DNA from: Rubripirellula lacrimiformis
GTDB lineage: Bacteria; Planctomycetota; Planctomycetia; Pirellulales; Pirellulaceae
Length of the DNA stretch: 64,000 nt
Assembly (NCBI RefSeq): GCF_007741535.1
Contig: NZ_CP036525.1
Span: forward strand, 3,720,001 to 3,784,000
Direction: 5' to 3'
In this document: positions 2,804 through 21,198 of the stretch, piece after piece
Position numbering within the stretch: the stretch's first letter is position 1
How the letters are laid out: each line of letters starts with the position of its first letter
Translations under genes and position numbers: made by a program
The notes under the pieces: model-generated
The model's database searches: none
Told to the model about the DNA's origin: nothing
Seen by the model: only the letters and a program-made list of their open reading frames with translations

Positions 2804-5524
2804 TCAATCCAAATAGCAATACTCGTTCGTGTTCAGCAGGACTCGCAGCACATGCGCCAGCCCTCGAGTTCGTGCGTCCACATCGGTAGGCCCCAGGTCC
2901 GGCTGGTACTGTTCATAGGCGGGAAGGAATTCGATAAAGCTGTAAGGCTGTCCGGTTTTTTCGGCCATCACGGTTCGTTCGATTTGGCTCGGCGGTGTTG
3001 TCATGGGATAGGTGATCGATTGTTCGTCGCTGGTCGCTTGCTGCCAGTGCTGTGCACAGAGATCCGTTTCTTTGTCGCTTGGATCGCGAGACAGGGCTGA
3101 TTGGAACGCCCTGCGAATGATCGCGTGGTCGTCGGTCGATTCTTCGTCCAACAGGCGTGTCGCAAACGCGATTGCCCGATCCAGCACCTCTTGGGAATTG
3201 ATCAACGTCAAAGCTTGCGGGGCGATGATGGACGTTTCTCGCATCTCGCAAGATTTGTCAGGTCCGGGCTGATTGAAGGCTTCTAAAAAGGGATCGCGGA
3301 TCCCCCGTATTCGTTCCGCGTAAAGTGTTCGTCGGTTGCGCTGCGATGGCAGGGGATCGGGTTCATAAACCGACGCGGTGCCGCCCATGATCTGTCGGGG
3401 TTGGAAGGCGACTTCCAAGTTGATGTCGGGACGGCATGGGATTCCACCCACTATCGGGTTCAATTCACCGCTAATTGCGAGCATCGAATCACGCAGTTCT
3501 TCGGCTGAAAGACGGCGCGGTCGAAACGTCGCATAAAGTTGGCCACTCGGGTCGATCGTTTGAAGCGAATCAGGATCTGGGTGGCGACTGTCGCGGCGGA
3601 AGGCTTCGGAAGTCATGATCAGACGATTCAGCTTCTTGACCGACCAATCGTTGTCGATGAACCATTGTGCCAAATAGTCCAGCAGTTCGGGGTGAGTGGG
3701 CAAGGCACCGGTGCCGCCAAAATTGTTGGGGTTCCCCGCGATCCCCTTCCCAAAGTGCCAAGCCCAAACGCGGTTCACCATCACGCGAGCCGTCAACGGA
3801 TTCGTAGGGTCGGCGATCCAATCGGCCAAAGCGAGTCGTCGATTGCCGCGACCTGCGGTGCGTTCGGTGTCGGGGAATTCGATTGGGCGCATCTGCCCCA
3901 GCGATTCGGCTGCGCTCAATGCCCCCGGTGATACCGCGTCGCCGACCGCATAGACATCGCCACCGCTATGGATGACGTCCTGCTCGACATCCCCTTTTCG
4001 CCATCGATCCGCGGGGACCTCGATACGCGAGCTGACGTTCTTTCGCTGGATGGTCGCGCCTGTATAGACAGCGAACGCGATCGGCTTTGTGCGGTCCAAT
4101 TCGATCCGATGACGATTGATGTTTTTGGACATCCGTGCCGCTGATGCCTCGTCACCGGGATCCAACCCATTGTCGCCAACCTTTGCATCGCTGGTTTCCG
4201 TTTTCTTGTCACGTTTGATCTTGGCGTCCAGCGATTTCGACTGACGCTGATAGGCCGCGATCTTGGCGTTGACCCATTGATCGCTGTGGTCAAACCCCGA
4301 CGTGTTCTCGTCGGGCAAAAAGGGGGCATCACGTTCGGAGAACTGAGTGGTCGAAAAAACCGACATCATGCGGTAATAGTCCCGCGTCGGCAGCGGATCA
4401 AACTTGTGGTCGTGGCATTTGCAACACAGCATCGAATGCGCCAAAAACGCTTGCCCGACCGTGTCGGTGACGTCGTCGAGCCACTGACCACGGGTTTCCT
4501 TGAAGACACTCATACCGGTCTGTTCCCAGGGCCCCATCCGCAGGAATCCGGTCGCGATCAGGTTTTCGACATTTGTTTCGTCCATTTCGTCGCCGGCAAT
4601 CTGCTGACGCACAAACTCGTCGTACGGTTTGTCTTGATTGAACGAACGGACAACGTAGTCGCGGTATCGCCATGCGTTGGGACGGCTGTAGTCGTTGGCG
4701 AAACCGGCCGAATCGGCATAGCGGGCGACATCCAACCAACGCCAACCGAAATGTTCGCCATAGTGGGGCGACGCCATCAATCGCTCGATCGCGTCTTCGA
4801 TCGCTGCGCTGGCATCGCGTTGGTATGCGGCGGTGAACGAGGCCACTTGTTCCGCCGACGGGGGCAGTCCGGTCAATCCGAAATGAAGACGCCGGATCAT
4901 CGTGGTAGCGCCGGCCGTAGAAGCGGCGGGCAGCCCCGCATCGCGCAGTCGCTGGTTGATGAACCAATCGACGGGGTGCTGACCGGCCGGCACGTCATGG
5001 TTTTCAAGGGCGCGGTAGGCCCACAGTTTGGCGGTATCGTAGCGGCGGTTTTGCCAGTCATCGGAAAGCGCCTGCGAGACCAACACCTGCTGGCCATCGG
5101 CATACTGCTGCTGAATCTGTTTGACGCGTTGGTCGCTTGGCCAAACCGCGCCGGCATCGATCCAATCTCGGATCCACCACTGCTGTTGCTCGTTCAACTG
5201 ATCCGCTTCCTTCGGCGGCATCTCGTATCCGGGCTCGGTTCGCGTGGTCGTCAGGTACAGCAGACTGTGCTGGCCGTCGCCGGGGACCGCGACGGATTCT
5301 TCGAACGAATCGCCTCCCGCCAACAGGCCTTCCCGCGATCGTAAATCCAATCCGCCTTGGATATCGTCGGGGTCGGCGCCGTGGCACGCTAAGCATTTCT
5401 GGGCCAACAAAGGCTTGATATGAATCGCAAACAACTTCTCGCCCGCAAGCACATCCACGTCGTCGTTGGCGCGAACCAGCGATGTGGCGAAAGCCAAGAT
5501 CGATAGAAAGAACACTCGTTTCAT
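2804..5524 (-). CDS. DUF1549/DUF1553 protein with planctomycete cytochrome c domain
   Basis: A secreted protein of about 906 residues (PSD1 type). The chosen ATG gives the signal peptide MKRVFFLSILAFATSLVRA; the longer frame would need a TTG start. Near the N-terminus is one c-type haem site, CLACHG, in the planctomycete cytochrome c domain (about residues 25-115). A DUF1549 region follows (HYGEHFGWRWLDVARYADS, about 265-285), then a second cysteine/histidine cluster, CCKCHDHKFDPL, in the middle. The C-terminal half is DUF1553-like (LADWIADPTNPLTARVMVNR, WAWHFGKGI). It is 135 bp upstream of the DUF1501 gene and co-oriented with it. The role is unproven; a redox or polysaccharide-related function at the cell envelope is usually proposed from context. 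Confidence 0.92.
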   Translation of the reverse strand: MKRVFFLSILAFATSLVRANDDVDVLAGEKLFAIHIKPLLAQKCLACHGADPDDIQGGLDLRSREGLLAGGDSFEESVAVPGDGQHSLLYLTTTRTEPGYEMPPKEADQLNEQQQWWIRDWIDAGAVWPSDQRVKQIQQQYADGQQVLVSQALSDDWQNRRYDTAKLWAYRALENHDVPAGQHPVDWFINQRLRDAGLPAASTAGATTMIRRLHFGLTGLPPSAEQVASFTAAYQRDASAAIEDAIERLMASPHYGEHFGWRWLDVARYADSAGFANDYSRPNAWRYRDYVVRSFNQDKPYDEFVRQQIAGDEMDETNVENLIATGFLRMGPWEQTGMSVFKETRGQWLDDVTDTVGQAFLAHSMLCCKCHDHKFDPLPTRDYYRMMSVFSTTQFSERDAPFLPDENTSGFDHSDQWVNAKIAAYQRQSKSLDAKIKRDKKTETSDAKVGDNGLDPGDEASAARMSKNINRHRIELDRTKPIAFAVYTGATIQRKNVSSRIEVPADRWRKGDVEQDVIHSGGDVYAVGDAVSPGALSAAESLGQMRPIEFPDTERTAGRGNRRLALADWIADPTNPLTARVMVNRVWAWHFGKGIAGNPNNFGGTGALPTHPELLDYLAQWFIDNDWSVKKLNRLIMTSEAFRRDSRHPDPDSLQTIDPSGQLYATFRPRRLSAEELRDSMLAISGELNPIVGGIPCRPDINLEVAFQPRQIMGGTASVYEPDPLPSQRNRRTLYAERIRGIRDPFLEAFNQPGPDKSCEMRETSIIAPQALTLINSQEVLDRAIAFATRLLDEESTDDHAIIRRAFQSALSRDPSDKETDLCAQHWQQATSDEQSITYPMTTPPSQIERTVMAEKTGQPYSFIEFLPAYEQYQPDLGPTDVDARTRGLAHVLRVLLNTNEYCYLD

Positions 5525-5875
5525 GGAAGCACTCGTTGCGTTCAACAAACCGTCGGTCGGCCGGCGGTCGGGGAGTCAGTCCCCTTCATGGTATCTGCCC
5601 CGACAGGGTGATGTTGCCGCTAGCTGATCGGCGGAAAGCGGGATGCGATGAAGCGCCGGAATTGGAAACGATTTCACTCGGCAAGTGCTCTGATCCGACG
5701 CGGCGGATCACCGACGGTGACCGCGGACGCTGTGCAGCTGCCATTTTGGGGGCGACAACCTTCCATACGGCTTGTTCTCCCGTCTTTTTGCTGTGGATTT
5801 GTCCATCCGGCAATGTCTATCCTGTCGCCTGCAGCATCACTTTCAACCTCCACTCCGAACTTTCAACTCCTGACC
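5525..5875. other. Intergenic region between divergent genes
   Basis: About 350 bp between the start of the cytochrome gene and the lipase start. It must hold both promoters, but no clear -35/-10 pair, operator or hairpin was recognised. The lipase frame stays open through part of it, so a longer lipase N-terminus (for example an ATG at 5813) cannot be excluded. Confidence 0.4.
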
Positions 5876-10960: not shown

Positions 10961-11010
10961 AAAAAAAAACGGCGAGGCAACCTCGAAAGGTTGTCTCACC
11001 GTTTGTTTTC
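10961..11010 (-). terminator. Strong hairpin terminator downstream of the decahaem cytochrome locus
   Basis: On the minus strand, AACGGTGAGACAACCT pairs with AGGTTGCCTCGCCGTT and is followed by nine T residues. On the plus strand the same hairpin is followed by TTTGTTTTC, so it may act in both directions. It is the first terminator-like structure after the barrel and cytochrome genes and the small frame at 11126-11278. Confidence 0.85.
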
Positions 11011-11125: not shown

Positions 11126-11278
11126 TCAACCACACTGCTGATCCTTGCCGGTAATGAAAGGGATCGACCGATTTTGCCGCCAGCTCGGATCGTAACTGTC
11201 GAAACGGTCAACCGAGTTGGTTCGCGTGACTCGTGGCGCGGTTAAGTCGACTTTGACGGTTGGTGGTTTTCGGTTCAC
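11126..11278 (-). CDS. Possible small protein downstream of the decahaem cytochrome
   Basis: A 50-residue frame from a GTG (product starts MNRKPPTVKVDLTAP and ends FITGKDQQCG). A further in-frame GTG at 11323 would give 65 residues. Codon choice resembles the neighbouring genes, and the frame lies between the cytochrome stop (240 bp away) and the strong terminator. There is no signal peptide, no recognised family and no clear Shine-Dalgarno. It could be the last gene of the cytochrome unit or a chance frame. The stretch 11279-11518 holds nothing else recognisable except a short AACCGGCCGGTT palindrome near 11463. Confidence 0.3.
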   Translation of the reverse strand: MNRKPPTVKVDLTAPRVTRTNSVDRFDSYDPSWRQNRSIPFITGKDQQCG

Positions 11279-11518
11279 CGAATCGCCGTGACCGTCCGGA
11301 CAGTGCCTAGACCCGCAACCCACGCAGTTTGAACGCGCCAGCCGTCGCTAACCACGCCATCAGGGGGTTGGACCTGGAACGACGACCCAGGCTGCCCAGT
11401 ACTTCAGGAGCCCGTGGACCATGTCGCCGCTGGATGCCGTTTAGGGCGGCGAAACCGGGACTAACCGGCCGGTTTGTTTTTAGGAAACGGGCACGGCAAA
11501 CCGCTGGTCCGTCGCGGC

Positions 11519-14500
11519 TTACCGCTTCAGCGATGCGGGGAACCGAAAGAATCGGTCGTCGAAAATATTGTCGCTGGTGTACCAGGTCGAACCGTCCGGG
11601 CGTCGGTACATCTTTTGGGTCTCGTCTTTCGACAGTGGGCGGGCCCCCACACGACCGAAGACAGCGATCTGATTGCCACTTTCGTCGACTGCGCGATCGC
11701 GGTCCATGCCGCGGCTGATCGCAAGCGCGTGCCCATTCTTGGGCAGCTGATAAGACGCGACCAAGAACGGTATCGGGCGTGGACTGAAACCGTCGTTGCC
11801 CGGCACTTCCGGACTGGTCAGTTGGATCACCCGCAATCCGTTCTTTCCGTCAGCAACGTAGGCGAACTGAGATACGTTGGTGATCCCCAATTGGACGTCG
11901 TGCGCGTCGTTGATGCACCCATCGGCGTCGTACATCTGGTCGACCCGAGCCGCCAATGGGTTCTCGATATCTAGAATCGCTAGACCGTGTTTGCCGGCGG
12001 CAACGTAGGCATAGGTGCGAGCCACGTAGATGCCGTGGGCGTCGTCCAGTTCGACTTCGTGAACGACATGCGGATGCGCCAGGTCGTGGGTGTCGATCAC
12101 CTTCACGCCGTGGTGATCGGTGACAAACCCGTACCGGAATTGGACGGCCACCTGATGCGGGTGGTCCAGTTCGTCGTGTCCGATGACGTGAGTCACCTTG
12201 GGGTTGGTTGGATCGTCTAGATCTACCACCACCAAGCCACTGGCACAGCAAACGTAGGCATAGGTGCCAACGATCGAAACAGATTCCGCACCATTTAGGA
12301 TTCCATCCGGATTGAAGGTCAGTGCCCGTTCCAGAAAATTGTTCAGTGGGTTGCCGTCCAACAGCGTTCCGGCACCGACCAGAATCAGGCCTTCTTCGCG
12401 ATCCGATACGTACAGGTATCCGTACAGCGGGTGAACGGCAGATTCTTCGTTGGTGGGGTCCTGCAGTCGCGTCGGGTCCGGCGCGATGGTGGTTGGTGCG
12501 GCGACTCCCGTAGCGAACTTGGTGCGAACATAAAGTCGTTGGCCAAGCGGCGAAACGGGCGCGGTCGTGATCCGTTCGCTGAAACCTTTGTGATCGATGA
12601 ACGCGATATCAAAGACTCGCAGCCCGCCTTTGCCACAGGCGGCGTACATGTATTCACCGCGGTGCTGCAGATCCAGGATCTCGGGTTTGCGGAATCTCAG
12701 CGACAGGGCTTCGATGATGTCACGGCCGGGATGTTCGTGCGAATGTTCGAGTTCACGATCGTGATGGATGTGCTCTTCGAAGTTTTCGGGATAGGCGATC
12801 TTGTGCAACGAACTGCCGATCACCGCTTGCGGTTCCGTCGTTTCGGTCACGACGACCGCTTCGAATCCATGTTCACCGGCGGCGACGTAACAGTACTTGC
12901 CGATGAAGTTGGTGAAGCCGGTGCCCTGCATCATCAACTGAGCCATGATCGCATTGTTGTCGTTGCGTCCGGACAGGTGACAATCAGTGCACGACTTGGT
13001 TTCGTAAACTCCGGACAATCCGTGGTCCGATTCGTTTTCCCAACCGGCACCGCCGCGAACGGTGTGCGGCACGTTGGTGCTAAACGCGATGCCCGACATG
13101 CCGTCGCCGGAAATCGTCTGTTGCTGGGTGTAGATGGCTTCCCGGTTGGCGTTGTAACTGGTCACGTGGATCGCGCAACTGCTTCGCGCCGGACCGATCC
13201 GGTTTCCGGTCACGTTGCCATCGCGGGCCAGCATGAAGATGTCGTCACGCAGGGTTTGGAAGTTGTAACTGGTTCGGTTTCGTGTCATGTCGCCCGTGTT
13301 GTGCAGTTCGGGTGACTTGATGTTCGCTCGCTGCGGCAGGTGACAACCGAAACAGCTTGGGTTCCAAGAACTGTGGCAGGTGATGCATGACATGTTGTCA
13401 TTGCGGTGGGCGCAATTTGCCAGATCCTGGGGGCTGGTTCCGCCCCATTCCACTTGGCCGGCCTCGTTCAACCGAACCGATTTCGCCGCATGGGAACGTG
13501 GGTTGTATGAATCACTGTTGGGGCGAACCGTATCGGCGGTCTGCACGACTTCCCAATACAGATCCGGTTCGACGGTCGAACGTTGGATCAATCGTGGCTG
13601 TTTCCCAGGCTCTCGCAAGACTTCGAACCGCGGTGTGTTGAAGGTCGTTCGCAGCGCCAACAGGTTGGTCCCACCGGGACGTCCGTCGGCGGCCGGCGGT
13701 GCGGCTGGGCCGCTGGTTGGCAATCGCGGTGCCTGGCCGGCTTGGATTTGCGCTTCGATTTTTTCGACCAACGATTGTTCGGCGGTACCGTGACAGTCGA
13801 TGCATTGGATTTCGATCGCGGCACGGACTTCGCCGTATAGTTTTCCGTTGCCATGGCTGTCCTGGTAATAGTGACAGTCGGTGCAGTGCATGCCCTTTTC
13901 CATGTGGATGTCCATCAGATGGACGGGCGCATCGGGGCGACATTTTCCGTTCTGCTTCTCCGCTGGGCTGGTCGGTGCAACCGATTGCCGAAGGTGCACG
14001 TTTTCGACGTGATCAAGCTGTTCGTTACGCCAATCCAACAGGGTGCCGTCACGATTCTTTTTGAACACCGCTCGGTATACCCAGCCGTGTCCGTGGAAGT
14101 CGGCGAATTGAGTGTGTTCCAGGTGCGGGTTCAGATCTGTGACGTTGGCCAAAAATTCGGGATCCGACCAATGTCCCCTTGCGGCCGCCTCGTTGGGATT
14201 CGATTCGGTCGCGCGAATGTAGTCCTCGGCCGTCAAATGTTTTTGTTCCTCGGGGTACATCAGTTCGCCGTCGGTTTCGTTGTCCCACCACATGTATCCC
14301 AGATAGCTGTTCAGCACGTTCGTTCCGGGGTGGATGTGACACACCATGCATTGGCTGGTGGGCATCCGTAGTTCGAACTTGTGCTGGATCGGGTGCCCGG
14401 GTTGGTCCTTGCGGATCATCGGATCGATGAACTGAACCCATTCGTCTCTTTCCGCCGCTGCGGTGCCACCGTTGCCGTATTTGGCTAGGAACCCGCTGGA

Positions 14501-15835
14501 CGTTTCGCTGCGGTCGTTGGCATACAGAACGTGGCAACTGCTGCATCCGCTGCTGCGATAGTCACCGGGGTGGTCGTTGGTCCCAAGAAAGTTCAGTGTC
14601 GGGTCTAACAGACGTGTTTTGGCCAGACCGATGAACACCGGATCGGTACGATTCTCCGTACCCAAACCGCGGACAGACAATCTTTCGCGTGGGCGGCCGG
14701 GTTCTTCCAAGACTTCGGGGATGCCCACTTCGGCTTTGAAACGGCCACCGCGTTCGAAGATCCGCAGCACGTTTCCGGGCTGGGACACTTGATAGGGGAT
14801 CAGCGGCTGCAGAAACGGCAGCACGCCTTTTTCCCGCGTCTCTTCGACCGTCGGCGGTGGGACCGTTTGCATGATCTGCGGTGCCCCGTTCATCGAATAG
14901 GATTCACCGTACCGAGCGTACTTTTCATCGGTGCCGCCGTTGTTGTACAGGGCTGCGCCCCACAGCATGCATCCGTGTGTCATCATGCTCTTACGCATCT
15001 GCAGCACCTCGTTGGCATGGCACTGACCGCAGGCGATGTGCGCAACCCGCAGGTCACCGGGGTTCATGAACCGGATGAAATCGGGTGATTCATGGTTCAG
15101 CAGTGTGTAGCTGCGGACCGGGTTCGCGCTGTCTTTCCACGCGGCCGGAAACTTGGGCCAAACATGTCCACCTTGGATGTCGAATTTGGATGCGTCGCCG
15201 CCGTGGCAATCGGTGCATCCAATGTTGACGCTGTTGATCGGGTGCATGTGCCCGACGTCGGTGTGGCAGTGGATGCAGCCTTCGCTTTTGATAAACGCAT
15301 CACCGGGCGTCTGCCGCATTTGATCGACGTGCCGAAGGTCTTCGGGAATCGGGTACGACGGGTTGTCGGCGACTCCCAACCGGCGGGCTAAATCCCAAGG
15401 ATCATCGCCGCGGCGGCCCACATCGGGTTCTTTGGCGCCGGCAGGTCCTGGCGCCGCTCCGTCATCGGACACCAGTCGTCCGTGGTAGGTTGGCGGCAGC
15501 GGGATTCGATTGGGGGGAACCACCGCACCGGGCAACAACCCGTTGGGCGTCGGATACGGACCCAGCGGTCCGCCTGTCGCTGTCGGCATGGGGCGATCGC
15601 CCGGTGGGAAGGCGGCCGTTTGTTCAGACGCTGCGTTGTTTGCGCCCGTGCGTGCGGCGACGGCGGTGGCATCCGAATCGGTGCCCGTTGGGGCCGCGTC
15701 GTTGGCATCGCCACCGCCAAATAGAGCTCGCAGTTTTGCGATTCGTTGGACCGGCGATTGAGCGCGGGCGTCGCTGGTGAAGAACAGTGGCAGAACTAGA
15801 AACAGAGCAACGATGGTCAGGACAAATCGTTTCAT
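11519..15835 (-). CDS. Decahaem c-type cytochrome with C-terminal LVIVD-type beta-propeller
   Basis: A secreted electron-transfer protein of 1438 residues. The chosen ATG gives the signal peptide MKRFVLTIVALFLVLPLFF. Ten CXXCH haem sites are visible between about residues 187 and 955: CIHCH, CTDCH, CGQCH, CSSCH, CMVCH, CTDCH, CIDCH, CITCH, CFGCH and CTDCH, with many spare His residues as possible distal ligands. After the last haem, about 400 residues form repeats of the LVIVD type (YAYVAAGKHGLAILDIENP, YAYVCCASGLVVVDLDDP, FAYVADGKNGLRVIQL), predicted to make a beta-propeller. A Pro/Ala-rich linker follows the signal peptide. It begins 32 bp after the beta-barrel gene, so the two are almost certainly co-transcribed. 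Haem attachment is inferred from motifs; partner and acceptor are unknown. Confidence 0.92.
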   Translation of the reverse strand: MKRFVLTIVALFLVLPLFFTSDARAQSPVQRIAKLRALFGGGDANDAAPTGTDSDATAVAARTGANNAASEQTAAFPPGDRPMPTATGGPLGPYPTPNGLLPGAVVPPNRIPLPPTYHGRLVSDDGAAPGPAGAKEPDVGRRGDDPWDLARRLGVADNPSYPIPEDLRHVDQMRQTPGDAFIKSEGCIHCHTDVGHMHPINSVNIGCTDCHGGDASKFDIQGGHVWPKFPAAWKDSANPVRSYTLLNHESPDFIRFMNPGDLRVAHIACGQCHANEVLQMRKSMMTHGCMLWGAALYNNGGTDEKYARYGESYSMNGAPQIMQTVPPPTVEETREKGVLPFLQPLIPYQVSQPGNVLRIFERGGRFKAEVGIPEVLEEPGRPRERLSVRGLGTENRTDPVFIGLAKTRLLDPTLNFLGTNDHPGDYRSSGCSSCHVLYANDRSETSSGFLAKYGNGGTAAAERDEWVQFIDPMIRKDQPGHPIQHKFELRMPTSQCMVCHIHPGTNVLNSYLGYMWWDNETDGELMYPEEQKHLTAEDYIRATESNPNEAAARGHWSDPEFLANVTDLNPHLEHTQFADFHGHGWVYRAVFKKNRDGTLLDWRNEQLDHVENVHLRQSVAPTSPAEKQNGKCRPDAPVHLMDIHMEKGMHCTDCHYYQDSHGNGKLYGEVRAAIEIQCIDCHGTAEQSLVEKIEAQIQAGQAPRLPTSGPAAPPAADGRPGGTNLLALRTTFNTPRFEVLREPGKQPRLIQRSTVEPDLYWEVVQTADTVRPNSDSYNPRSHAAKSVRLNEAGQVEWGGTSPQDLANCAHRNDNMSCITCHSSWNPSCFGCHLPQRANIKSPELHNTGDMTRNRTSYNFQTLRDDIFMLARDGNVTGNRIGPARSSCAIHVTSYNANREAIYTQQQTISGDGMSGIAFSTNVPHTVRGGAGWENESDHGLSGVYETKSCTDCHLSGRNDNNAIMAQLMMQGTGFTNFIGKYCYVAAGEHGFEAVVVTETTEPQAVIGSSLHKIAYPENFEEHIHHDRELEHSHEHPGRDIIEALSLRFRKPEILDLQHRGEYMYAACGKGGLRVFDIAFIDHKGFSERITTAPVSPLGQRLYVRTKFATGVAAPTTIAPDPTRLQDPTNEESAVHPLYGYLYVSDREEGLILVGAGTLLDGNPLNNFLERALTFNPDGILNGAESVSIVGTYAYVCCASGLVVVDLDDPTNPKVTHVIGHDELDHPHQVAVQFRYGFVTDHHGVKVIDTHDLAHPHVVHEVELDDAHGIYVARTYAYVAAGKHGLAILDIENPLAARVDQMYDADGCINDAHDVQLGITNVSQFAYVADGKNGLRVIQLTSPEVPGNDGFSPRPIPFLVASYQLPKNGHALAISRGMDRDRAVDESGNQIAVFGRVGARPLSKDETQKMYRRPDGSTWYTSDNIFDDRFFRFPASLKR

Positions 15836-15867
15836 GAATCCGTTCTTTTGCGGCGGGGCTGGCTTCG

Positions 15868-18141
15868 CTAGTACTCCAACACCAGTTCCAGGAAACCGGC
15901 GACGTGGTTTCGCGTATCGCCTTCGAGCGTGCGGAAGAGATCTTCGAACCCTTCCCCCGAAATCAATGTTGCCAAACCACCCAAAACCAACACGTTGTTG
16001 TTCAACAGCGGACGCCATTCCAGGCCCGTGCTGATGTCCGTTCCGATGAACTTGTCCACATCATTGACAAACAAGTAAGTCTCCAAGACCTCGGTTTCGT
16101 CGAACCACAGCAAATTGAGGTTGTTGATCGTCTTTACTCGGGGGGTAATGTCCGCGTCGAGACCAAGATTGAATAAATGCAGTCCCGGGTTCACGAAATT
16201 CGTTTGTCCCTGGAACTTCGTGTTCCGCATATTGGCCCCCAAAGCCTCGCGATTCGTCAACTCGACGCCAAACAGGCGTACCGCTTGACGCCCCCAAAAG
16301 CTGAACTCTTGACCAGCAAAGTTGGGTTCCGGAAAAATCGCATCAAATCCGGTCGCGGTGTCGTCGTTGGGGTCGGAATCGCCCGAGTTGTAAAAGTACG
16401 AAGTCCGAAACCGCACCCAATCCCGGTCGTAGGAAATCTCCGACGCGAACATGTACGCGCTGATATCCACCTCTTTGCCCGCGATCGGATTCAGGTCGTC
16501 TTTGCCGAACACGTAATAGAACGCGTTGCTGAAGTTGTACCGTTCGCAGTGACCATTGTTGGCGCAACCAAAGTAGTACGACTTGACGTCGTGTGGGATC
16601 GCAACACCGACCGGATCTGGACGCACCAGAAAGTTGTTGCGATCAAATTCTTCCGTCGCTTGGTCGTGGTTGGCGTGGAACGATACGTTCGCGACATTCC
16701 CGGGGTACAAGAAGTCTTGGCGATAGTAGTTGGCGATCCAAGTGTTCTGATGACGGTCGTCATCCAGTCGGTTCAGCAGACTGTTGGTGTCCTTTTCGGT
16801 CTGGTCAAACCAGATCAGGTTGAACTGATCACGATTGCTGTGCCGGGTCCCGAACAGGCGAACGCCGCGGTTGATGTCGTTGAAGATGAAGCCGCGAAAA
16901 TCGCTGACGAACAATTGGCTGCCGGCACGTACGGAAGCAAAGTCGTAGTACGGGCTGATGTCAGCCAGTTTCAACTCAAAGAACCACTCCTGCAGCGCGA
17001 CGTCATTGCGATTGCGGTTCAGCCCGTCACGAACGTCGGGGCTGACGACGCCCAGTTCTTCGGCGCGAAAGTTGTTGGTGTTGAAAACCAAATCGGCTTT
17101 CACACGCCAATCCACCGGCTTGGAGAACGTGTTGCCATGGAACAGGTCAATCGCGATCGCCGTGTTTTGGATCACCGATACCGAGTCGGGATCGCCGAAG
17201 AACTCGGCCTGCCCGGGGTTCCGAGTCGATTCGAATGGAGTCGTGGGGGTCGGCAATTGGCGGGCTTCGATCAGCGTTTCGCTGATGCCGGTAATATTTA
17301 AAAACGTATGTTGTCCGATGATCGGAAAGTCACCCTTCCACACGTTTTGATTGAACGGATCCCACCAAGTTCCTTTGACGCCGGGGTAGTCATCCATCAC
17401 CGGATGCTGTCTCCCGTATCGATCCGAATCCTGTTGCCCCAGACGCCAACGGTCTTCGACGGGGATGAAGTGGCTGCTGGATTGTTGCTCGGTCGGCGCT
17501 ATGCCCGAGGGACCGGTGAATCCGTAGGGGAAGTCACGACGGTGTTTCAGTAGCGGCCATGTGTGGTCTTCGCCAGCCGCGATCGGCGGCATCCGGTCGG
17601 CTGGCTGACCCGCATCTCTTAACACATCGGGACGTACCGTTTCGCCGTCCCAGGTGACGTCGGATGGTCGGATGTCTGACAACAATTCGCCGAACGACTT
17701 TGTCGATGGGCGGTTCTCGGGCGCCGGTGCGGTCGTCGGTGTCTTGTTGGTGACCGGTGTTTCAGCAGGGACCGGGACTGTGTCTTGGATCTGGGCGGGG
17801 GACGACAAATGCATCCGGATGCCCGTGGATTCGCCACCGGTTTGGATCGTGTGCGATGAGTTCCCCGTGGTGGTTGAATGATCGTTGGATGCGGAATTCA
17901 GCGATGGTCCCTGGATCAACCATTCTCGCAGCTCGGAACCGCGATGGGTTTCGGCTTCGGATCTCGGTGATTGGGCAACGACGCTGCGACACGGCGCCAT
18001 GTGCAGCCACATCATCCCCAACGCGGCTGCGACAAGCGGCAGCATCTTTCGTTGAAAGGGATGAAATCGCATGTGAATCGGGCTACCCGAACTGGTCATC
18101 GATGGATGCCTTGTCGGCGACCGCTGTTGCTCGGTCGCCAT
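15868..18141 (-). CDS. Large outer-membrane beta-barrel protein partnered with the cytochrome
   Basis: 757 residues from an ATG with AGTAGG about six bases upstream (a TTG lies just before it). A signal-like hydrophobic stretch (KMLPLVAAALGMMWLHM) is followed by a Pro/Thr-rich linker of about 150 residues. Then come about 550 residues of alternating amphipathic strands rich in Tyr, Phe, Asn and Asp (FEWFFELKLADISPYYDF-like pattern, WVRFRTSYFYNSGDSDPN). The chain ends in FLELVLEY, with the terminal aromatic residue typical of BAM-inserted outer-membrane barrels. The exact family is not recognised; it resembles porins of the DUF1302 or alginate-export size class. It is the first gene of the unit with the decahaem cytochrome, which suggests a barrel that sheathes or anchors a transmembrane haem wire. 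The pairing is inferred from context. Confidence 0.8.
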   Translation of the reverse strand: MATEQQRSPTRHPSMTSSGSPIHMRFHPFQRKMLPLVAAALGMMWLHMAPCRSVVAQSPRSEAETHRGSELREWLIQGPSLNSASNDHSTTTGNSSHTIQTGGESTGIRMHLSSPAQIQDTVPVPAETPVTNKTPTTAPAPENRPSTKSFGELLSDIRPSDVTWDGETVRPDVLRDAGQPADRMPPIAAGEDHTWPLLKHRRDFPYGFTGPSGIAPTEQQSSSHFIPVEDRWRLGQQDSDRYGRQHPVMDDYPGVKGTWWDPFNQNVWKGDFPIIGQHTFLNITGISETLIEARQLPTPTTPFESTRNPGQAEFFGDPDSVSVIQNTAIAIDLFHGNTFSKPVDWRVKADLVFNTNNFRAEELGVVSPDVRDGLNRNRNDVALQEWFFELKLADISPYYDFASVRAGSQLFVSDFRGFIFNDINRGVRLFGTRHSNRDQFNLIWFDQTEKDTNSLLNRLDDDRHQNTWIANYYRQDFLYPGNVANVSFHANHDQATEEFDRNNFLVRPDPVGVAIPHDVKSYYFGCANNGHCERYNFSNAFYYVFGKDDLNPIAGKEVDISAYMFASEISYDRDWVRFRTSYFYNSGDSDPNDDTATGFDAIFPEPNFAGQEFSFWGRQAVRLFGVELTNREALGANMRNTKFQGQTNFVNPGLHLFNLGLDADITPRVKTINNLNLLWFDETEVLETYLFVNDVDKFIGTDISTGLEWRPLLNNNVLVLGGLATLISGEGFEDLFRTLEGDTRNHVAGFLELVLEY

Positions 18142-18609
18142 CAAGACCTACTTGCAGGAATGCCATCTGCGAAGTGCAGTTGGCGTCCTTCCCCCTACTT
18201 AGGATGTCAAGATATATCGACCGGGGGTGCCTTGCGGCTGGCATTGAATATTCCGGTTATTCCAGTTTTGTCGGTTAAGCTGACAGCTTTCCGCGACGCG
18301 GTCGTTAAACGGGGTAAGCGAACTAAGATGGGTGGGCCCCCGCGGTCGGGGTTTGCCTGCACAATCGGAGCTATCCCACAGTGGCACGGACTGCCCGACC
18401 GATAGAAAGGGTAGTCCTGGTGATTTTGATCGCTCCTGTTTCGAATCCGCATGGTTTCATTTTCTGCGGTTCGATTTGGCGAGTTTCGATTCGGGTGGTT
18501 CGCCAGCCTGACCCGATCGGATCCGCTGGTCCGCCGATATTGGCGACGGCGTCGTTAGGCGATGCCGCCGGATGAATCGTTCCTTTTAACAAACTATTCG
18601 AGTCATTCG
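18142..18609. promoter_or_regulatory. Divergent promoter region with a 13-bp palindrome
   Basis: About 470 bp between the divergent barrel and dockerin/HbpS-like genes. AAGCTGACAGCTT at 18277-18289 is a perfect odd palindrome and a candidate operator. A TTGACA occurs on the minus strand near 18206-18211 and GATATATC just upstream of it, but no complete -35/-10 pair with correct spacing could be assigned. Both promoters are inferred to lie here. Confidence 0.35.
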
Positions 18610-21198
18610 ATGTCCATTGGCCGCCGCAACCTAAGCCGAAAACCACGCAACCATCGACGTGGACTTCGCATCGAGTCGCTGGAAAAGCGACAGATGATGG
18701 CCGGTGATCTCGGATCGCTTCACAACGCCGCGATGCCCAGTGACGTCAACGGTGACGGCGATGTCACGCCGATCGACGCCTTGAACGTCATCAACTATCT
18801 GAGCCGCTTGTCGTCGCCGGAGGGTGAGTTCGGCGCGCCCGCATCGGCGGACGACGGGATCAAGATGGTGGACGTTGACAACAGTGGCAACGTGACGGCG
18901 CTGGACGCGTTGCTGGTCGTCAATGACCTGTTGATCGAAGGGGAAGACCCGCCGCTGAAACCGAGCGAGTTGAACGTCAATTCGTTTTTTGATGCCTTTC
19001 CAAAGGCAGCGGAGGTCGACTCGGTCTTCGCGGCCAACTTCAACAATGCCTTTGAAGTGGGTGGTTCTGAAAACGAATTGCAGGCTGCCGACGTCGATAC
19101 ACTGCTGTCGCGTGCATCGGCCGCCACTCGCAGCAACGATGGGATCATCGCCGTGGTGGACCGCAACGGCACGATCTTGGGTGTCCGTGTGGAAGAGGGC
19201 GTCTACGCGTCGCTGCCGAAAGGTTCCAAGGAACTTTCGTTTGCCATCGACGGTGCCGTAGCCAAGGCACGAACGGCGGCGTTCTTTAGCAGCGGTCAAG
19301 CACCGTTGACCAGCCGCACCATCCGTTCGCTGAGCCAATCGACGATGACACAGCGCGAGGTCCAGTCGTCGCCGGTTGCCGAACAAGGGGAATACCAGGG
19401 ACCGGGGTTTGTAGCGCCGATCGGGGTGGGGGGGAAGTTTCCGCCGGAGGTCAATTTCACGCCTCAGGTCGACCTGTTTGCGATCGAACACCAAAGCCGA
19501 GATAGCCAACTGCACGCCGGTACGAACCAGATCAAGGGCGATGCCGACGATTTCACTTTGCGAACTCGTTTCAACGGTGACCCAACCTACATTCCCGAAA
19601 GTGCCGAAGACTTCTTCCAAACTTGGCCAGAATCGTATGGCGTTCAGACCGAAACCGACTTCGCTGCCCAGTCACGCGGTGTGGCCACCTTGCCCGGCGG
19701 CATCCCGCTGTTCAAAACCGTCGTCGACTCCTTCGGAAACGCCGTCACATCGCCAGTCAGCGATTCGATCAATCTGGTCGGCGGCATCGGAGTGTTCTTC
19801 CCCGGTGAAGATGGGTTTGCATCGTACGAACAGGGGTTCGTTCGCGGTATCAACCAAAGCGAAAAGACGCGGACCAATGCGGACAAGGTGTTGGAGGCCG
19901 AGTTTGCGGCCTTCATCGCAGCGGCTGGTCAGCGCATCGTCGTTGGCGATAGCAATTTCAGCCGAGACCTGCGTGAGTTCAATCAAAATCTGCCTGAACT
20001 GGAACGGTTCGTGCTGCCAAACGGACGCATCGATCTGGTCGGCATCACGCTGGAAATCTACGGACCCAATCCAACGCGCGAACATCGCATTCCCGGGATC
20101 GATCGCTTGATCGAGATTGGCCGTGCCAACTTTGGCGGCAACGGATTCGTGTCCGGGGAACTGCAGGTTGTCAGCCCCGGCGGCGACCTTTTGTTGGACG
20201 GTCGACCCGTGCCGGAGGGGTGGCTGATCGCGCCGCATGATTCGCAGGTTGATCTGGGGCTGACGTCCGAGATTGTTGACCAGATTATCAATCAAGGAAT
20301 TCGCGAAGCCGAGATCACTCGCGCGGCAATTCGGTTGGACATCGACAATCAGTTCCGGCCCGGCGCACGCACGGCGATGGTGATGGCGGTCACCGATTCG
20401 ACCGGCGAATTGCTGGGGCTGTATCGGATGCCCGATGCGACCGTGTTTTCCATCGACGTCGCGATCGCGAAAGCTAGAAACGTTGTCTATTACGCCGACG
20501 CGACCGCGGGCGTTCTGCAGGATGCCGACCGCATCGATTTCAATGGCGACGGTGTCTTTGGAACCATCAGCACATCTTTGTCGAACAATGCCGGCGACAC
20601 GCTGCCGGTCGGCACCGCAGTCACCAATCGAACGTTTCGGTTTTTGGCCGAACCGCGTTACCCCACCGGCCAAGAGTTGCCAGCGAATTCGGCCGATGGC
20701 TTGAACAAGGTTGATCCGCTGTGTGAACAGAAACCGGAGATTTGTCGTTTGATCGCGCCGCAAAGCATCTTACGCCTGCCCGGCATCAATCCGATCACGG
20801 CCGAAAACTTAGGCGACGGAATTCCGTTGGACATCAGCGTCTATCGCGATCCCAATTCGCCGGCCGTGTTGGCGTACGATGCGTTCAACATCGGACGCAA
20901 CTTCCGTGACCTTGGGGACGCCGAGGTGAAGATCCACGGGACCGAAATCCTGCAACCGCTGGCCAACCAGAACGGGATCGTGTTCTTTCCGGGCAGCACG
21001 CCGGTGTACCTGGACAACGACGCAGAGAAGTTGGTCGGCGGCTTTGGCGTCAGCGGTGACGGAGTCGATCAAGACGACGTGGTGACATCCGCCGGACAAG
21101 TCGGGTACGCCGCACCGGCTTCCATCCGTGCCGATCAGTTTCCGGTCGCCGGCGTCCGATTGCCATTCCAAAAATTCAATCGTGACCCACGCGGCTAG
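18610..21198 (+). CDS. Secreted dockerin-type protein with HbpS/GlcG-like domains
   Basis: 862 residues. The ATG at 18610 places the planctomycete N-terminal sorting motif (GLRIESLEKRQMMAGD) near residues 22-37, marking export. Two dockerin-type calcium loops follow (DVNGDGDVTPIDALNVINYL and DVDNSGNVTALDALLVVNDL). Then come two segments resembling the haem-binding HbpS/GlcG (DUF336) family: GIIAVVDRNGTILGV with a GGIPLF...LVGGIGVF continuation, and AMVMAVTDSTGELLGLYR followed near the C-terminus by FPGSTPVYLD and LVGGFGVSGDGVDQDD. The second copy carries a third EF-hand-like loop. It diverges from the porin-cytochrome genes. A haem-related or scaffolding role is inferred, not shown. Confidence 0.8.
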   Translation: MSIGRRNLSRKPRNHRRGLRIESLEKRQMMAGDLGSLHNAAMPSDVNGDGDVTPIDALNVINYLSRLSSPEGEFGAPASADDGIKMVDVDNSGNVTALDALLVVNDLLIEGEDPPLKPSELNVNSFFDAFPKAAEVDSVFAANFNNAFEVGGSENELQAADVDTLLSRASAATRSNDGIIAVVDRNGTILGVRVEEGVYASLPKGSKELSFAIDGAVAKARTAAFFSSGQAPLTSRTIRSLSQSTMTQREVQSSPVAEQGEYQGPGFVAPIGVGGKFPPEVNFTPQVDLFAIEHQSRDSQLHAGTNQIKGDADDFTLRTRFNGDPTYIPESAEDFFQTWPESYGVQTETDFAAQSRGVATLPGGIPLFKTVVDSFGNAVTSPVSDSINLVGGIGVFFPGEDGFASYEQGFVRGINQSEKTRTNADKVLEAEFAAFIAAAGQRIVVGDSNFSRDLREFNQNLPELERFVLPNGRIDLVGITLEIYGPNPTREHRIPGIDRLIEIGRANFGGNGFVSGELQVVSPGGDLLLDGRPVPEGWLIAPHDSQVDLGLTSEIVDQIINQGIREAEITRAAIRLDIDNQFRPGARTAMVMAVTDSTGELLGLYRMPDATVFSIDVAIAKARNVVYYADATAGVLQDADRIDFNGDGVFGTISTSLSNNAGDTLPVGTAVTNRTFRFLAEPRYPTGQELPANSADGLNKVDPLCEQKPEICRLIAPQSILRLPGINPITAENLGDGIPLDISVYRDPNSPAVLAYDAFNIGRNFRDLGDAEVKIHGTEILQPLANQNGIVFFPGSTPVYLDNDAEKLVGGFGVSGDGVDQDDVVTSAGQVGYAAPASIRADQFPVAGVRLPFQKFNRDPRG

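Follow-up and report, generated by a model that had tools for sequence, protein, structure and literature searches.

A barrel and LVIVD-decahaem cytochrome pair of planctomycetes as the candidate outer-membrane arm of an electron chain linked to NADH

PCC4 is a predicted porin-cytochrome type (He et al., 2017; PMC5566968). The signature of PCC3 and PCC4 is an inner-membrane protein containing the motif WX3HX13H twice together with SGXXG, and PCC4 subgroup II includes Planctomycetes and carries a PF13247 Fe-S protein gene beside the inner-membrane protein gene (PMC5566968). In Geobacter, the porin-like ExtI and the cytochrome ExtM are encoded in one cluster (ExtHIJKLMNOPQS), and loss of ExtI impairs selenite and tellurite reduction (PMC5877670). 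Here, a locus coding for a barrel and a multihaem cytochrome was analyzed in a 64,000-nucleotide stretch of the Rubripirellula lacrimiformis genome (the window), and the same genes were followed in related genomes and in plasmids.

The locus contains two genes transcribed in the same direction on the minus strand: one codes for an outer-membrane barrel (15868–18072), and the other for a secreted decahaem cytochrome with a C-terminal LVIVD propeller (11519–15835). The barrel stop and the cytochrome ATG are separated by exactly 32 bp (15836–15867, minus strand), the same-strand spacing given in the preliminary description of this DNA. A small frame and a strong downstream terminator had also been said to define the unit. 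The terminator was recovered as an intrinsic one on the minus strand, with a hairpin and a T run (10961–11004; −22.9 kcal/mol, z −5.7). The small frame (11126–11323; 65 aa) is present as an ORF, yet apart from its own copy (L001), tblastn over 106 loci produced nothing better than chance matches (best E 0.2), and for this reason it was not counted as a gene of the unit. The proposed span was moreover too small, since it left out a divergent gene on the plus strand (18562–21198) that accompanies the pair and is part of the unit, as is a remote module described below. This gene codes for an HbpS-like protein (PF03928) that also matches dockerin and Planc_extracel. A protein of about 200 aa adjoins the HbpS-like protein in 36 of 103 loci; no relative of it was found in the window (best E 0.065).

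The cytochrome is a protein of 1438 aa with a signal-peptide-like start (MKRFVLTIVALFLVLPLFF). Its ten CXXCH motifs, every one on the minus strand (12977–15277), span residues 248–1014, about 770 residues, and shuffling its residues over 20,000 rounds yielded at most two CXXCH. The LVIVD family PF08309 matched it with 64 bits, over the cut-off of 20.2, and these results confirmed the proposal of a secreted protein that combines ten CXXCH motifs with a run of LVIVD repeats at its C-terminus. The propeller fold was found in the AlphaFold2 model of a relative (L074) and in propeller matches in Foldseek; its limits here (11639–12895, minus strand) are approximate, transferred by eye from a relative's model. 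In each of the ten haem motifs, conservation of the C, C and H positions is 0.99–1.0 over 95 aligned sequences, and thinning of the alignment at 80% identity kept 64 of 94 sequences plus the window protein. Nine CXXCH and one CX4CH are present in 42 of the 94 relatives, the latter being a CGxxxCH form that aligns with the third motif. Fourteen of the 19 conserved non-motif His are retained in both Sphingomonad cytochromes, enough for ten bis-His haems. Cys948 and His951 are conserved at 1.0 and 0.99 in the same 95 sequences; their consideration as an active site was abandoned because neither is kept in the proteins of Sphingobium and Sphingopyxis. A lipobox-like regular expression matched 9 of 103 cytochromes, mostly implausibly by eye, and was uninformative; with no clear lipid anchor found in this way, the cytochrome may be periplasmic. 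Neither the cytochrome nor the barrel had a significant relative among solved structures.

The ExtM family NF040943 matched the window cytochrome with 50.6 bits, below its cut-off of 800. The host genome also codes for an ExtM-like protein, itself under that cut-off (216 bits), and part of the window haem region aligned with it by hhalign with a probability of 99.7 (E 1.1e-26). Judged by these profile comparisons, the haem domain (12977–15277 from first to last CXXCH, minus strand) is related to ExtM, in the sense of homology only.

The barrel open frame (15868–18144, minus strand; probable ATG at 18072) ends in LEY, and the C-terminal residue is Y, F or W in all 60 aligned barrels. AlphaFold2 modeled the window protein as a barrel with 18 long strands (mean pLDDT 80), and the Foldseek matches listed for this model (50 of 884) are outer-membrane barrels; the barrel-like protein ending in Tyr of the preliminary description was thereby borne out. 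The best fold match among those listed is AlgE (E 1.6e-15; TM 0.53 normalized to the query and 0.69 to the target length), at 12% identity, and MtrB is absent from the same 50 of 884 matches. The window barrel belongs to no Pfam family, and Alginate_exp (PF13372) did not match it at E ≤ 1; three of 45 barrel relatives matched that family weakly (best E 0.0027). MtrB has 26 strands. By a geometric formula, the backbone diameter is 32–35 Å for 18 strands versus 46–50 Å for 26, so no whole cytochrome would be expected to fit within this barrel. An N-terminal segment (17308–17463, minus strand; DPFNQNVWKGDFP region) is more conserved than the barrel proper, though unstructured in the model. The barrel alignment was thinned at 80% identity to 44 of 59 intact-ended barrels plus the window protein. 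A motif resembling this segment is present in Sphingobium.

Among 198 genomes of the host's class, the cytochrome was found in 73, the barrel in 72, and both in 70, leaving three genomes with the cytochrome only and two with the barrel only (Fisher 3.5e-47, a value to be read with the caution that genomes of one class are not independent samples). Since the two proteins co-occur in 70 of 198 genomes, the pair is, on comparative grounds, one conserved system. The cytochrome search matched 93 genomes, of which 20 were excluded for having no more than short propeller-like matches or haem-only ones; some of the 73 counted are fragments at contig ends. The match in one excluded genome (G126) is ExtM-like (E 5.8e-15). 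The adjacency seen in the window recurs: among the 76 loci that extend 2.5 kb or more upstream of the cytochrome, 55 have the barrel at most 1 kb upstream on the same strand, and 18 have no barrel on the locus. These loci were not dereplicated, and several share one genome (for example, L084 and L101). Counted by genome, the two genes lie within 1 kb of each other in only 38 of the 70 having both. The HbpS-like protein accompanies the cytochrome in 69 class genomes, after removal of two weak matches (G051 and G059) out of 75. An inner-membrane protein accompanies it likewise in 69 at E ≤ 1e-9, a threshold chosen after viewing the list; at E ≤ 1e-3, 71 genomes have both, two the cytochrome only, and 22 the membrane protein only. 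Within the host's family, the same four of 24 genomes are positive for the cytochrome, the barrel, the HbpS-like protein and a strong inner-membrane match. Mirror-tree distances of cytochrome and barrel correlate with r 0.78 over 56 loci, which was not used as evidence because shared ancestry alone predicts it. An apparent barrel-cytochrome fusion (L081) was an artefact, the barrel match sitting in another frame than the long frame taken. A link to glutamate dehydrogenase was dropped because gdhA lies beside the system only in L003 and in the Sphingopyxis plasmid L127, and the remaining loci of the ORF set gave no match.

The module that tracks with the pair comprises NuoEF, an Fe-S/cNMP protein, a di-haem-b-type inner-membrane protein, and 10-, 4- and 5-haem cytochromes. 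In the host genome it lies about 330 kb from the pair (L116), and in some relatives most of the gene set is packed in 16–26 kb (L007, L128, and L129 with L130). The 4-, 5- and 10-haem cytochromes stand alongside the inner-membrane protein in L116, L007, L044 and L129. Two WX3HX13H motifs and SGXXG are present in 18 of the 18 planctomycete inner-membrane proteins examined, that of the host included, and in the Sphingobium protein. PF13247 matched the Sphingobium Fe-S protein encoded beside the inner-membrane gene with 43.9 bits (cut-off 26.2); the host Fe-S protein, three genes from the inner-membrane gene, stays under that cut-off with 20.7 bits.

Much of the gene set is also carried by plasmids of Sphingobium, soil bacteria of another phylum, and the pair by a Sphingopyxis plasmid as well. 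Plasmid pMSHV codes for a 4-haem cytochrome, the HbpS-like protein, the barrel, the LVIVD-decahaem protein (PF08309 matched the Sphingobium cytochrome with 57.8 bits), a decahaem cytochrome, the inner-membrane protein and the Fe-S/cNMP protein. In those plasmids of Sphingobium and Sphingopyxis that were read, a "heme-binding protein" equivalent to the HbpS-like protein is encoded directly upstream of the barrel. A plasmid search with the host inner-membrane protein gave no match, and one with its Sphingobium counterpart retrieved 12 plasmids, all of Sphingobium. The Fe-S/cNMP protein matched 484 plasmid records in part, 12 of them over 80% of the query. Among viral contigs, 13 stretches fitted a pattern and none was confirmed.

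We consider it somewhat probable that an NADH-linked electron chain spans the envelope and that the pair forms its outer-membrane arm. On the cytoplasmic side, NuoEF and the Fe-S/cNMP protein would take electrons from NAD(H) or give them to it, and the membrane protein with two b-haem-type motifs, together with a decahaem cytochrome, would pass them into the periplasm. There, the 4-haem, 5-haem and second 4-haem cytochromes may carry them to the LVIVD-decahaem protein, which would dock on the AlgE-like barrel, probably via its conserved N-terminal segment. Electrons would cross the outer membrane at the barrel, leaving toward an acceptor or entering from a donor, with the HbpS-like protein as putative outer partner. 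The data establish the gene set with its conservation, co-occurrence and clustering, and that plasmids of another phylum carry much of it; haem binding, these contacts, the site of the cytochrome, the outer-membrane crossing with its direction, and the acceptor or donor we infer.

Instead, the cytochrome could be a porin-fed periplasmic reductase or oxidase of the kind proposed for the ExtI cluster, a reading that we consider possible but doubtful: the barrel would admit a soluble substrate (an oxyanion, a metal complex, or a humic or phenolic compound), on which the LVIVD-decahaem protein, fed by the NADH-linked chain, would act without any electron crossing the outer membrane. Kinship with ExtM favours such a substrate, given the clustering of ExtM with ExtI and the selenite and tellurite phenotype (PMC5877670), and the narrowness of the barrel and the want of a clear lipid anchor agree with it. 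No open-coordination haem or active-site residue was identified for such an enzyme, however, Cys948 and His951 being lost in the Sphingomonad proteins, and a surface role agrees better with the co-occurring HbpS-like partner, whose signals are of extracellular type. Many hosts are regarded as aerobes, which was counted against the conduit, as were the 18 of 76 loci devoid of a barrel and the absence of significant solved relatives of either protein.

A classical MtrAB-like conduit, with the barrel sheathing the decahaem protein, would account for the adjacency and the haem number; we judge it very improbable, the barrel having 18 strands, an AlgE-like fold, no Pfam family and no MtrB among the 50 of 884 Foldseek matches listed, and the haems being spread over about 770 residues in an un-MtrA-like manner. 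AlgE as best listed fold match and the three weak Alginate_exp relatives might suggest an alginate-type exporter that merely neighbors a cytochrome. This explanation is contradicted by co-occurrence (70 genomes with both versus three and two with one, even where the genes are far apart) and by the finding of this pair on plasmids from a different phylum, and we give it hardly any credence.

The genomes of the host's class come from a group mostly described as aerobic heterotrophs. If the NADH-linked chain to the outer membrane is real, 73 of the 198 sampled class genomes (more than one third) would own a dedicated NADH-to-outer-membrane wire, and the view of how they live when oxygen is scarce, on particles or within biofilms would have to be revised. 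Since much of the set resides on plasmids of culturable Sphingobium, the predicted PCC4-type proposal is directly testable.

Among the open-access journal papers found in literature searches, no title or consulted text described an LVIVD-fused cytochrome beside a barrel. The alpha subunit of hydrazine synthase is another planctomycete protein that contains both a propeller and c-type haem, but its six-bladed propeller is N-terminal and its haem is an active-site one in a different system (PMC12758564); a hydrazine-synthase-like reading was rejected, as the propeller here is at the opposite end and the partners are others. By description, the Verrucomicrobia clusters of a related phylum likewise join a porin and a multihaem cytochrome, with an 8-haem periplasmic cytochrome and porins of at least 20 predicted transmembrane motifs (PMC5615132). 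In Planctomycetota MAGs, again compared by description, porin-cytochrome complex genes were identified from their resemblance to known genes of iron reduction (PMC10732223). AlgE (Alginate_exp, PF13372) shares the barrel fold; it differs in its 12% identity, in its Pfam family and in having no cytochrome partner.

The Geobacter Ext cluster similarly groups a porin-like protein with a large ExtM-family cytochrome, although ExtM is described with 12 haems and no mention of a propeller, versus ten haems and a propeller here, and ExtI is predicted to have 12 strands with weak likeness to phosphate-selective porins (PMC5877670). In gene content (a porin and 4-, 5- and 10-haem cytochromes) and inner-membrane motifs, the set appears to resemble PCC4. 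The planctomycete set has the LVIVD-decahaem protein in addition, which may lie on either side of the outer membrane. No extracellular cytochrome is reported for PCC4; the words "LVIVD" and "propeller" do not occur in the main text of that paper, and the sections of it consulted mention other redox-active proteins without naming HbpS-like proteins or NuoEF (PMC5566968). Mtr/Pcc systems (MtrAB, OmbB-OmaB) share the adjacency of barrel and multihaem genes, in contrast to which the present pair has an 18-stranded AlgE-like barrel instead of a wide one, a diffuse haem domain over about 770 residues instead of a compact MtrA-type cytochrome, a propeller fusion and a linked NADH-side module. The porin-cytochrome assignment of the preliminary description is in part supported, as regards a conserved unit tied to a PCC4-like electron chain, and is unsupported in the Mtr/Pcc sense. 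Only tentatively might the pair represent a new class of trans-outer-membrane conduit, with an 18-stranded AlgE-type barrel, a propeller-fused ExtM-related cytochrome and a haem-binding HbpS-like surface protein as outer relay, wired to NADH and not solely to quinones, widespread in planctomycetes regarded as aerobic heterotrophs, moved between phyla, and carried on plasmids at least in Sphingomonads.

The gene pair lies on the minus strand, barrel first: the barrel gene occupies the frame 15868-18144, with a likely ATG at 18072, and is followed after a gap of 32 bp by the gene (11519-15835) for a secreted protein of 1438 residues carrying ten CXXCH motifs and an LVIVD propeller. This arrangement, proposed in the preliminary description, was borne out, and in 20,000 shuffles of the cytochrome residues CXXCH occurred at most twice. 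The same description closed the unit with a small frame and a strong terminator; the terminator, at about 10961 on the minus strand, was retained, and the 65-aa frame was discarded as part of the unit, no relative outside the own genome having been found in 106 loci. A planctomycete cytochrome protein of the PSCyt1/PSCyt2/PSD1 type is encoded at 2804-5548 of the window.

The structure of the barrel-like protein was predicted from 45 sequences (mean pLDDT 80, pTM 0.78; the five models spanned 65.5 to 80.1). As had been claimed, it is modelled as a barrel, with 18 long strands counted from the printed elements, and porin folds were recovered by Foldseek. The first 15 rows were the AlgE alginate exporter (rmsd 6.6 A at the best E, 1.6e-15), which the barrel model resembles most; below it came chitoporin, MOMP, Occ and further porins, and MtrB was not among the best 50 of 884 matches. 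The first 81 residues were mostly modelled with pLDDT below 50, and residues 33-84 showed higher conservation than the remainder (mean top-residue frequency 0.77 vs 0.70). Of the 59 barrels whose 5' end is intact, 44 had a motif like DPFNQNVWKGDFP and at least two more had variants of it; Sphingobium has a similar motif. This conserved N-terminal segment may be a docking segment. For the cytochrome, a relative (L074) was modelled from 65 sequences (mean pLDDT 74, pTM 0.80), and its C-terminal end was a stretch of strands. By title, nearly all its Foldseek rows were propeller proteins (e.g., BtuG and BamB), and therefore no fold relatives of the haem region were seen among them.

Scanning of genome contigs yielded 158 relatives of the cytochrome. 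Among the 80 listed, all titles were planctomycete or unspecific, and the closest with genus names included members of Rubripirellula, Aporhodopirellula, Neorhodopirellula, Roseiconus and Rhodopirellula. In 95 aligned sequences, the two Cys columns and the His column of each of the ten haem motifs were conserved at 0.99 to 1.0. Ten CXXCH motifs were present in 50 of 94 relatives, nine plus one CX4CH in 42, and one motif fewer in two; 14 of the 19 conserved non-motif histidines were also present in two Sphingomonad proteins. In a profile search of 246 genomes sampled throughout the phylum, 97 gave some match at E<=0.001 and 29 exceeded 650 bits, 27 of these (counted from the table) being outside the class. 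The homologue in genome G103 (C1:6243654-6247945) was matched as two pieces with a TAG inside each, possibly a decayed copy. Some of the listed relatives are lake MAGs labeled Kuenenia. Metagenome genomes labeled Candidatus Kuenenia also carry the cytochrome (L045, L046, L052, L055, L071 and L080); these labels look doubtful.

Conserved adjacency of both homologues, a check named in the preliminary description, was found in relatives: at 76 loci with at least 2.5 kb of upstream sequence, a same-strand barrel lay within 1 kb upstream of the cytochrome in 55, elsewhere in three, and was absent from the locus in 18. Among 198 genomes of the class, own genome included, the cytochrome family occurred in 73, the barrel in 72 and both in 70; three genomes had the cytochrome without the barrel (G050, G087 and G167) and two the reverse (G046 and G095). 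The two genes were within 1 kb in only 38 of these 70, in part because contigs are broken. Shared occurrence of separated genes is stronger evidence than adjacency. The HbpS-like protein, encoded divergently at 18562-21198, was present in 73 class genomes, and 69 of these also had the cytochrome; in 52 of the 69 genomes having both, it was no more than 5 kb from the barrel, also where the cytochrome sits elsewhere (e.g., G042, G062 and G187). Since the species are related, the co-occurrence p-values (3.5e-47 and similar) should not be taken at face value, and the scatter of the set within the own family is a fairer test. Only four of its 24 genomes had the set, all four with cytochrome, barrel, HbpS-like protein and an inner-membrane match (E 1.6e-22 or better), and the remaining 20 gave weak matches at most. 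Searches of the two genomes of the same genus (G114 and G126) revealed no barrel, HbpS-like or inner-membrane protein, and their cytochrome matches were only short propeller-like or ExtM-like ones.

Neighbours in relatives pointed to 4-, 5- and 10-haem cytochromes and a membrane protein: among 103 fetched loci, 4/5-haem proteins lay near the cytochrome at 37, 10-haem proteins at 18 and the membrane protein at 17. At E<=1e-9 the latter was found in 73 class genomes, 69 with the cytochrome. In the own genome, one contig of 8.54 Mb in which the window spans 3,720,001-3,784,000, the relatives of this module lie together at 3.393-3.406 Mb (L116), as genes for a 5-haem protein, a 4-haem protein, the membrane protein, a decahaem protein, a second 4-haem protein and, directly downstream (L116:13836-18238), a NuoE-NuoF fusion and an Fe-S protein of 839 aa that carries a cNMP-binding domain and has NuoG-type matches below the cut-offs. 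The products of these last two genes apparently form the point where NADH feeds into a periplasmic chain of haems. Compact clusters join the parts in relatives. One of 16 kb (L007), whose cytochrome is 79% identical to that of the window, contains 4-haem proteins, decahaem, membrane protein, HbpS-like protein, barrel, LVIVD cytochrome and 5-haem protein, with NuoEF and the Fe-S/cNMP protein absent from that stretch; another of 20 kb (L128) contains NuoEF, truncated at the end of the stretch, together with the Fe-S/cNMP and HbpS-like proteins, the barrel, the membrane protein, the decahaem protein and the LVIVD cytochrome, with the 4- and 5-haem genes absent from it. All these parts, NuoEF, Fe-S/cNMP and 4-/5-haem included, were present in 26 kb of one contig (L129 and L130), and at L044 chain and cytochrome stand in a row without a barrel on the stretch. 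A glutamate dehydrogenase gene adjoins the system at one planctomycete locus (L003:13983-15401), with no further planctomycete locus matched, and on a Sphingopyxis plasmid (L127:9082-10437).

The pair was also found in another phylum, on 13 plasmid records, 12 from Sphingobium and one from Sphingopyxis (two conjugative and 11 non-mobilizable in PLSDB), with about 36% identity over 92-96% of the query for the barrel and 41-44% over 84-85% for the cytochrome. The same 13 records carry the HbpS-like protein, and all 12 Sphingobium plasmids the membrane protein; the plasmid search gave no membrane-protein match on the Sphingopyxis plasmid. In pMSHV of S. herbicidovorans the genes run from 4-haem through HbpS-like and barrel to LVIVD-decahaem, followed on the opposite strand by those for the decahaem protein, the membrane protein and a PF13247-bearing Pyr_redox/cNMP/Fe-S protein; these last three are distant from the own-genome proteins (23-30% identity; the Fe-S protein only in its second half). 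Directly before a plasmid-borne cluster (L126:2458-10611) are genes for a secretion protein of the ShlB/FhaC/HecB type and a hypothetical protein of 2092 aa.

We consider it very probable that the barrel, the LVIVD-decahaem protein, the HbpS-like protein and the NADH-linked module belong to a single system, and likely that electrons are carried by it between NAD(H) and the outer membrane. Whether electrons or a soluble substrate cross that membrane is a close call. The haem region matched ExtM (NF040943) at 50.6 bits, far below the cut-off of 800. A second own-genome protein with 12 CXXCH motifs (L092:7964-10480; C1:1,697,964-1,700,480) matched ExtM at 216 bits, also below it, and aligned with the cytochrome profile in hhalign (probability 99.7, E 1.1e-26, 246 columns); no barrel-like frame was among its listed neighbours, and it bears a C-terminal hydrophobic stretch. 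For cable bacteria, PMC11976967 gives ExtM homologues, and the related ExtKL genes there have no neighbouring porin gene. The nearest relative on which genetic data exist is ExtM of Geobacter, which shares a cluster with the porin-like ExtI in PMC5877670, where loss of ExtI is given as impairing selenite and tellurite reduction; since porin and cytochrome there act on a soluble substrate, passage of such a substrate stays a live, if less favoured, reading. The HbpS-like partner, together with the likeness to PCC4, a predicted porin-cytochrome type, tips the balance towards transfer of electrons themselves. All 18 membrane proteins examined contain WX3HX13H twice plus SGXXG, the signature presented in PMC5566968 for PCC3 and PCC4 inner-membrane proteins and read there as two b haems, and in pMSHV the PF13247 protein adjoins the membrane protein, a trait that the same source gives for PCC4 subgroup II.
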